From: Brevundimonas vesicularis
Lineage (GTDB): Bacteria > Pseudomonadota > Alphaproteobacteria > Caulobacterales > Caulobacteraceae
Assembly (NCBI RefSeq): GCF_027105095.1
Contig: NZ_CP114278.1
Span: 1,674,001-1,738,000 of the forward strand
Direction of reading: 5' to 3'
DNA length: 64,000 nt
A model generated the notes under the pieces. That model saw only the letters and a list, made by a program, of their open reading frames with translations, ran no database searches and had not been told where the DNA came from. Within the stretch, counting starts at the first letter, position 1. Each line of letters begins with the position of its first letter. The position numbers and the translations under genes were made by a program. Positions 47,486 to 48,973 of the stretch are shown here, piece by piece.

Positions 47486-48973
47486 ATGCACGACATCAGA
47501 GCCATTCGCGAGAACCCCCAGGTTTACGTGGCGGGCTGGTCGTCGCGCGGGGTGGATGATGCACAGAAGGTGGTGGACGATATCCGAGAGCTGGATGCCA
47601 AACTGCGTCACGCCCAGACGACGGGGCAGGACGCCCTGGCCAAGCGTAATGCGGCCTCCAAGTTGATCGGCGCCGCCATGGGGCGCAAGGACATGGCCGA
47701 GGCCGACCGGCTGAAGGCCGAGGTCGAGGCGCTGAAGGGCGATATCGCGGCGGCGGCCGAGGTCGAGGCGCGTGTCGGCAAGGAACTGCGCGACCTGCTG
47801 GCGGCGCAGAAGAACCTGGCGGCCGAGGATGTGCCGGACGGCGAGGACGAGGCGGGCAATGTCGAGGTCTCGACCTGGGGCGAGCCGCGTCACACCGGTC
47901 CGGCCAAGGACCACGCCGACCTGGGCGAGGCCCTGGGGATGCTGGACTTCGAGGCGGCGGCCAAGATGTCGGGCGCGCGGTTCGCGGTGCTGAAGGGGCA
48001 GTTGGCGCGGCTGGAGCGGGCCGTAGGCCAATTCATGCTCGATATGCAGACGGATCAGCACGGCTATCTGGAAGTGAACCCGCCGTATCTGGTGCGGGAC
48101 GAGGCGATGTTCGGCACGGGGCAGTTGCCGAAATTTCAAGCTGATCTATTCGGAGTTTCCGACGGTTGGATTGGAACCGTTGCTGAAGCTGTGGCGGTTC
48201 GCGATCGTGCCGTTATCCGCGAGGCGGTCACCGGACACCTTTCTAAAGTGGCAGAGCTGCCTGCGCCTCTCGCCCAAGGATTGTCTGACGAATTCTTCGC
48301 TAGAATGAATGAGATTGAGGACTATCAGCGTCAATCACTCAAAGACATTTTTGACCCATTGCGCCGCTGGCTCATCCCCACCGCCGAAGTCTCCCTGACC
48401 AATCTCGTGCGCGAGACCATACTGTCCGAGGATGACTTGGCGACGCCGATGCGGATGACGGCGCTGACGCCGTGCTTCCGGGCCGAGGCGGGGTCGGCGG
48501 GGCGCGATACGCGCGGGCTGATCCGCCAGCACCAGTTCTCCAAGGTCGAGATGGTGTCCATCGCGCGGCCGGAGGACTCAGACGCCGAGCATGAACGAAT
48601 GACGGCCTGTGCGGAGGCGGTGCTGAAGGCGTTGGAGCTGCCGTTCCGGCGGATGCTGCTGTGCAAGGGCGACATGGGCTTTTCGGCGCAGAAGACTTTC
48701 GACCTGGAGGTCTGGCTGCCCAGCCAGGGGACCTATCGCGAGATCAGCAGCTGCTCGAACTGCGGGGACTTCCAGGCGCGGCGCATGGACGCGCGGTTCA
48801 AGCGCGCCGGCGAGAAGAAGACCGAGTTCGTCCATACGCTGAACGGCTCGGGCCTGGCGGTCGGCCGGACGCTGGTGGCGATCATGGAAAACTATCAGCA
48901 GGACGACGGGCGGATCGCCGTGCCGGCGGTGTTGCAGCCCTATATGGGCGGTCTGCAGTTCGTGGGCGGCTGA
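47486..48973 (+). CDS. serS: Seryl-tRNA synthetase with a 67-residue internal insertion
   Basis: Class II synthetase charging tRNA-Ser. The N-terminal long coiled coil spans about residues 25-105 (DIRELDAKLRHAQTTGQDAL). The catalytic domain carries LIPTAEVSLTNLVRE, motif 2 FRAEAGSAGRDTRGL and motif 3 GSGLAVGRTLVAIMENYQ. Total length is 495, about 65-70 more than usual. The excess lies at residues 228-294 (48167-48367), between DLFGVSDG and WLIPTAEV, which are adjacent in normal SerRS. The insert is helical-looking and AT-richer than the flanks. Reading frame and all other motifs are intact, so the enzyme is presumably functional. Start ATG 47486. Confidence 0.93.
   Translation: MHDIRAIRENPQVYVAGWSSRGVDDAQKVVDDIRELDAKLRHAQTTGQDALAKRNAASKLIGAAMGRKDMAEADRLKAEVEALKGDIAAAAEVEARVGKELRDLLAAQKNLAAEDVPDGEDEAGNVEVSTWGEPRHTGPAKDHADLGEALGMLDFEAAAKMSGARFAVLKGQLARLERAVGQFMLDMQTDQHGYLEVNPPYLVRDEAMFGTGQLPKFQADLFGVSDGWIGTVAEAVAVRDRAVIREAVTGHLSKVAELPAPLAQGLSDEFFARMNEIEDYQRQSLKDIFDPLRRWLIPTAEVSLTNLVRETILSEDDLATPMRMTALTPCFRAEAGSAGRDTRGLIRQHQFSKVEMVSIARPEDSDAEHERMTACAEAVLKALELPFRRMLLCKGDMGFSAQKTFDLEVWLPSQGTYREISSCSNCGDFQARRMDARFKRAGEKKTEFVHTLNGSGLAVGRTLVAIMENYQQDDGRIAVPAVLQPYMGGLQFVGG

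Follow-up and report, generated by a model that had tools for sequence, protein, structure and literature searches.

Aminoacyl-tRNA synthetases are slow-evolving housekeeping enzymes that serve as phylogenetic markers. Insertion domains that distinguish them by lineage, such as the CP1 domain of LeuRS and the metazoan UNE-S, are conserved within their lineage. The palindromic elements of Rickettsia lie in frame inside protein genes and occur as repeated palindromes at many loci. In the target-recognition domains of HsdS and in the tips of polymorphic toxins, unrelated cores are exchanged by recombination within a conserved frame. Synthetases are also acted on by foreign proteins, as in the case of the T4 Vs protein and the host ValRS. 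HipA-type kinases act on glutamyl-tRNA synthetase, as described in PMC8262856. Both examples identify synthetases as targets of phages or toxins. Here we analyze a site in the seryl-tRNA synthetase (SerRS) gene of Brevundimonas vesicularis at which related bacteria carry unrelated protein segments. The gene lies in a stretch of 64,000 nucleotides (hereafter the window), to which coordinates refer unless stated otherwise. The open-access literature, which leaves most subscription journals and all bioRxiv preprints outside, yielded no earlier description of insert polymorphism in SerRS or GlyRS, and a term search of PMC10883770 returned nothing on the phenomenon.

An in-frame insert in seryl-tRNA synthetase

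The serS gene of the window (positions 47486-48973, + strand) encodes a 495-residue SerRS that scored 484 bits against the NCBIfam equivalog TIGR00414 (cut-off, 302 bits) and is matched by PDB SerRS sequences on both sides of an insert. Alignment of 25 SerRS sequences revealed long invariant stretches on either side. The left edge, LPKFQADLF (48125-48151, + strand; residues 214-222), is present in the parsed loci, with L214-F217 and D220-F222 invariant in the alignment. The right edge, WLIPTAEV (48368-48391, + strand; residues 295-302), has L296 and P298-V302 invariant, includes the TxE serine-binding motif and forms a sharp GC3 boundary in Brevundimonas. Between these edges is a hypervariable loop of 72 residues (48152-48367, + strand; residues 223-294). 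Because the loop has only 5-6 residues in Brevundimonas that lack an insert, the net insert (48167-48367, + strand; residues 228-294) amounts to 66-67 codons. No best stretch of the 29 matching PDB sequences spanned it, and the three printed alignments broke exactly at this position. An earlier, sequence-only reading of this DNA had proposed an in-frame insertion of 67 codons surrounded by an intact synthetase, and the position of the two edges (last base of DLF, 48151; first base of WLIPTAEV, 48368) and the TIGR00414 score bear out both points.

The same reading had put the insert at about 54% G+C, below nearby serS, with an AT-rich stretch starting some 35 bases ahead of it. The measured values agree: G+C was 53.7% in the insert, 68.1% in the upstream and 66.8% in the downstream part of serS, and 41.7% in a 36-base left shoulder (48131-48166, + strand) that overlaps conserved codons and is likely part of the imported tract. 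By residues, GC3 was 87% (1-210), 50% (211-222), 50% (223-294) and 91% (295-495). Taken alone, this composition is only moderately unusual, as 188 of 6380 overlapping 201-base segments across the 64 kb were equally AT-rich. The low G+C being modest by itself, the case for the insert is carried by comparative evidence. Scans that relied on automatic gene calls, some of them surely spurious, ranked the GC3 dip of serS as the deepest of 429 genes (864 kb of the window's own genome) and, under a stricter measure, as number 6 of 858 genes (1.664 Mb covered, about 1.46 Mb outside).

Composition also differed between the two sides of the insert. In insert-bearing Brevundimonas, GC3 was low over the last ~6 codons on the left (two of which are low in insert-less Brevundimonas as well) and was not low on the right. 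From this one-sided drop, the left edge may be transferred along with the insert more frequently than the right one is. Some insert-bearing SerRS proteins read DQF instead of DLF at the left edge (loci L036, L056, L114, L166, L167, L171, L179, L217, L218, L220, L221, L224, L227 and L228), a hint of co-evolution between edge and insert. Upstream of serS, positions 47259-47410 contain GC-rich stretches, partly palindromic by eye, around cattcatggggagg and ccccgcgaagcggggagg.

Distribution of inserts at the SerRS site

SerRS was matched in 123 of the 131 Brevundimonas genomes searched and could be parsed in 121, the other ten genomes having no match (8) or fragments only (2). Inserts of 18-118 residues were present in 91 of the 121 parsed genomes, with loops of 23-118 residues in 88 and of 18 residues in three; the loop measured 5-6 residues in the other 30. 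The best 120 proteins of a search of 5.8 billion sequences, all of them near relatives, carried inserts of many kinds, and four proteins named B. vesicularis (P0003, P0014, P0018 and P0030) had four different inserts. A single insert common to all close relatives would have contradicted the sequence-only reading; they carry a different insert or none.

We extended the survey to an evenly drawn sample of 398 genomes of the order Caulobacterales. Among the 336 from outside Brevundimonas (4 without a match), the SerRS match was broken in two in about 103 by hand count, a measure that short inserts would escape. Of 54 such genomes with at least two matches, 53 had an insert at the site when the locus was fetched and one (L183) did not. 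The insert is dispensable in many strains, being absent from 30 of the 121 Brevundimonas genomes, while about 233 of the 336 other genomes of the order lacked a broken match. In one of the 53 insert-bearing loci, L194, the reading frame is interrupted immediately upstream of the insert by a stop codon or a frameshift, and its genome (G305) gave three matches; the interruption is either a sequencing error or a disrupted gene.

At the level of the class, we scanned 289 genomes and examined 24 that were chosen for their broken or weak match, a set that does not include every broken match (G468 and G668 are among those outside it). Fourteen of the 24 had an insert of at least 29 residues at the site, and the other ten were empty, had another type of SerRS or could not be parsed. 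Named records, after L246 (mis-parsed) and L300 (unparsed) were dropped, added Caulobacter, Phenylobacterium and Asticcacaulis to the carriers of inserts, together with 3 of 14 records named Mesorhizobium (a 9-residue loop in the other 11), one of three Nitratireductor, and one of two records each of Aquamicrobium and Chelativorans. Outside the Alphaproteobacteria, the match was broken in none of the 86 matched proteobacteria (of 88 genomes; one a contig-end fragment), a test that is blind to loops of ~13-15 residues such as those of the solved PDB chains. In the reading that we prefer, the inserts occupy one fixed turn of SerRS adjoining the serine-binding strand and are carried by Alphaproteobacteria, above all Caulobacterales and only sporadically elsewhere in the class. 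A separate case is L223, from another alphaproteobacterial family, whose insert has 34% G+C while its gene has 62%, as though it had been imported recently.

Insert families and their evolution

Pooling inserts of at least 18 residues from loci and proteins gave 299 sequences, 246 of them unique. Some entries represent the same strain and a few loci come from the same genome twice, which does not affect the unique count. Single-linkage clustering with phmmer (E<1e-3), a sequence-based procedure that splits distant relatives, resolved 143 families, 105 of which were singletons. The 91 insert-bearing Brevundimonas genomes alone accounted for 57 families, and the count had not reached a plateau (52 at 80 genomes). 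Ten of the 143 families were found in more than one genus, including one that is present in Brevundimonas, Caulobacter (genus g3, named via identical inserts in named records), four further genera of the order and Mesorhizobium. Some alleles are thus found on both sides of a genus or even an order boundary. By eye and in length, the window insert is similar to the P0002/P0004 family, but the match to it was not significant (E 0.25-0.7).

Insert family hardly follows the relatedness of the flanks. In a comparison of 17391 pairs, the two inserts belonged to the same family in 9 of the 279 insert-bearing pairs whose flanks were at least 90% identical in DNA, and in 65 of the 5972 pairs with identity below 75%. 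Unrelated inserts were found even within ~99% identical flanks (0.991 alignment score per residue), as in P0010/P0074, P0077/P0105 and P0007/P0049. The Caulobacter vibrioides alleles P0121 (the protein of the OR37 record), P0152, P0193 and P0200 are likewise mutually unrelated, with flanks that score 0.91-0.97; P0200, whose insert has 57 residues, is the one that occurs on the largest number of contigs. Among the best 120 relatives of P0121, 90 had a loop of 9 residues or fewer and 30 had an insert, each distinct from the others. At the SerRS site, close relatives thus have unrelated cores between flanks that are conserved, and alleles and flanks differ in history.

Within families, dN/dS was 0.07-0.18 in the 11 of 16 insert pairs for which it could be computed (four others were saturated at synonymous sites and one was identical); the pairs were chosen at pN <0.25, a choice biased toward low values, several of them overlap in membership, and their synonymous sites approach saturation. 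Read within these bounds, the protein sequence of the inserts looks constrained within families. In 13 of the 16 pairs synonymous divergence was higher in the insert than in the C-terminal flank, as expected if the alleles are older than their host genes or moved independently of them. One of the three exceptions, L066/L069, has identical inserts although the genes around them have clearly diverged, which points to recent transfer. This disagreement of synonymous divergences, together with the families that cross genera, identifies alleles that are common to several species regardless of their flanks. Of 179 loci, 168 had lower G+C in the insert than in the remainder of the gene, with a mean difference of 10.8 points.

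A second variable synthetase, GlyRS beta

The glyS gene for the GlyRS beta subunit (own genome 1088716-1091076, + strand; L341 8716-11076) is hypervariable at one or two sites. Its GC3 dip was number 3 of 429 in the first scan and fell outside the top 30 of the stricter scan (858 genes), probably because its 136-codon segment swallows the 50-codon flanks used there. The GlyRS beta match was broken in 56 of 61 Brevundimonas genomes at residues ~490-612 and, in 15 of them, additionally near residue 410, a few of the breaks being added by a contig end or frameshift. Segments could be delimited in 29 of 30 fetched genes; they spanned 28-145 residues and had GC3 values of 46-83%, against 87-95% elsewhere in the gene. 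The 20 segments of at least 45 residues fell into 15 families. Across 110 genomes of the order, the gap between the two GlyRS pieces ranged from 0 to nearly 300 bases (rows read by hand). In E. coli, the HD and anticodon-binding domains of GlyRS beta bind tRNA-Gly (PMC9908026); judging from its position in the sequence, the main variable segment would lie between these two domains.

The two synthetases vary independently of each other: among 30 genomes compared, eight with a 5-residue SerRS loop had GlyRS segments of 38-118 residues. As a control, the AlaRS match was unbroken in all 41 genomes examined. MnmG, which has a GC3 dip of its own, was unbroken in 40 of 41 and the remaining one was a fragment. 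Nor did we find a deep GC3 dip in the putative LeuRS, ValRS, TrpRS and AlaRS genes of the window's genome (0.14-0.15), which were assigned by motif.

Two side observations came from these surveys. One genome (G099, C5:85497-85808) has, close to its full AlaRS gene, an additional incomplete copy that contains a stop. In the window's own genome, positions 2046160-2048247 (- strand) encode a protein, NuoL-like by its sequence, with an Asp/His-rich stretch of low GC3 near codon 465.

Predicted structure and candidate identities

AlphaFold2 modeled the window insert as two helices, at 48161-48250 (+ strand; residues 226-255; pLDDT of 64-75 in 10-residue blocks) and 48263-48361 (+ strand; residues 260-292; 64-79), in a model with a mean pLDDT of 72 overall. 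The insert of P0038, unrelated in sequence, was also predicted to form a two-helix hairpin (residues 229-261 and 264-296; block pLDDT of 77-96). In this second model the hairpin is flanked by two strands, 223-227 and 300-305, and the second of these leads into LIPTAEV. The sequence-only reading had proposed modeling as a check for a separate helical domain, and the predicted hairpin agrees with one at modest confidence. Hairpins were modeled for these two inserts; other families look strand-rich by eye.

Searches for relatives and donors returned little. No convincing known domain was found in 92 family representatives with Pfam, PADLOC and PHROGs, and their weak hits were scattered, one per family. 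A DNA search of plasmids for a donor gave two weak matches only (E 0.2 and 0.7). The window insert had no match among phage and plasmid proteins, and two other inserts had none among phage proteins. A word-based search of 5.8 billion proteins with the window insert (211 candidates), of a kind that misses distant relatives, recovered its own protein only.

Two mundane identities were rejected. Inteins have at least ~130 residues, start with Cys or Ser, end in His-Asn and are followed by Cys, Ser or Thr; the insert has 67-72 residues, in a loop that opens with GVSDGW and closes with DPLRR ahead of a Trp. An assembly artefact, a doubt that the sequence-only reading had raised, is excluded by the presence of inserts in numerous genomes obtained independently, some of them assembled as a single contig.

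Interpretation of the polymorphism

SerRS and GlyRS beta, both essential synthetases, show a polymorphism of unrelated cores at fixed sites that is constrained at the protein level and shared horizontally. Our preferred reading, to which we assign about an even chance, is that the window insert represents one allele among many of an exchangeable, polymorphic domain, brought in by recombination and kept diverse by an antagonist of SerRS and GlyRS. The conserved flanks of serS would allow alleles to move by homologous recombination, and gene transfer agents are a plausible vehicle for their exchange. Those of C. crescentus carry pieces of ~8.3 kb that recipients can use for homologous recombination (PMC9632790). 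Less certainly, the diversity may be maintained by negative frequency-dependent selection that an antagonist protein exerts. This putative antagonist, which needs to bind SerRS and GlyRS, could come from a phage or mobile element or could be a delivered toxin. A rare insert would alter or cover the docking surface and leave the catalytic core untouched, and new or rare alleles would resist until the antagonist adapted. We infer the antagonist from the pattern of the sequences, for which an arms race seems the most economical reading. Against it, such an antagonist must act on SerRS and GlyRS yet spare AlaRS, and many strains do without an insert altogether. No partner, phage or toxin for the inserts was identified in a few phage and plasmid searches and in the comparison of the 92 representatives with Pfam, PADLOC and PHROGs, nor did the open-access literature yield an agent like T4 Vs or HipA that is directed against alphaproteobacterial SerRS or GlyRS.

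Alternatively, the insert could be a built-in immunity or antitoxin module that neutralizes a matching toxin of the same strain or its kin, in which case the inserts would mark incompatible groups. Allelic families shared across genera are the pattern expected of a toxin-immunity polymorphism, and both modeled inserts are small separate hairpins. However, the 92 representatives gave no convincing match to defense or antitoxin proteins (best E 0.0026), we noticed no strain-specific gene beside serS among the open reading frames listed for the window, and an essential enzyme would be an odd carrier for such a function. We therefore regard this explanation as unlikely.

We also consider it improbable that the inserts diversified without conflict, by tuning the stability, partner binding or a second function of SerRS to local conditions. 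Protein-level constraint inside families is in keeping with such adaptation, but a shared physiological role is hard to fit to unrelated inserts in strains of one named species or within near-identical flanks and to 105 singletons. The independence of the GlyRS beta states from those of SerRS in the 30 genomes also speaks against it.

Quite improbable, too, is that the turn simply tolerates insertions, so that illegitimate or homologous recombination fills it with drifting foreign DNA whose diversity is not under selection. The low GC3, the lack of known domains, the coexistence of empty and filled alleles and the position of the inserts between what are modeled as two core strands would all suit a permissive loop. 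Such a loop is, however, hard to square with the low dN/dS within families (in 11 of the 16 chosen pairs), the families common to several genera, the predicted helical hairpins in both inserts modeled, the similar state of GlyRS beta but not AlaRS, or the unbroken matches (0 of 86 broken) outside the Alphaproteobacteria.

We give almost no credence to a mobile coding element like the palindromic ones of Rickettsia, a likeness suggested by the sequence-only reading from an in-frame segment of shifted composition in an essential gene, because the window's genome holds no second copy (the self match alone stands out, the next best having E 0.06 over 23 bases), no terminal inverted repeats bound the insert, in which that reading too had seen no evident repeat, and other strains have unrelated contents at this one fixed site. 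Of the acquired origin it had proposed, recombination from another lineage is likely and the mobile segment falls away.

If the preferred reading of an allelic domain diversified by an antagonist is extended beyond this locus, the SerRS and GlyRS of Alphaproteobacteria might be contested in an antagonism that has gone unrecognised and is perhaps specific to the class. Phages, gene-transfer-agent-like elements or delivered toxins would attack the two enzymes, and the bacteria would respond with an open-ended set of small, horizontally shared domains that plug into fixed sites. We find such a "synthetase serotype" system a real possibility, somewhat short of an even chance. More than 100 unrelated allelic domains at one SerRS site, some of them across genera or orders, imply that translation in a large bacterial class is subject to a strong selective agent as yet unseen, and look like the trace of an unrecognised arms race on an essential enzyme of protein synthesis. 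The search for this agent is now feasible, including in the model species C. vibrioides (crescentus). Phylogenies built on serS or glyS and the use of their products as drug targets need to take the insert into account.

Comparison with known systems

The SerRS of the window has the same core as canonical bacterial SerRS (PDB 6h9x and 6r1m), with the TIGR00414 match on both sides of the insert, and differs in a loop of 72 residues where the aligned canonical chains have ~13-15. Like LeuRS CP1 and UNE-S, the inserts add an extra domain to a synthetase core; unlike these, they are unrelated between close strains. With the Rickettsia palindromic elements they have in common the in-frame position within a gene, but here there is no repeat, a single site and unrelated contents. 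To our knowledge SerRS has no variable partner, in contrast to HsdS and the polymorphic toxin systems. The pattern of a conserved frame with unrelated cores is nevertheless the same as in HsdS and toxin tips, and the frame in this case is an essential cytosolic housekeeping enzyme.
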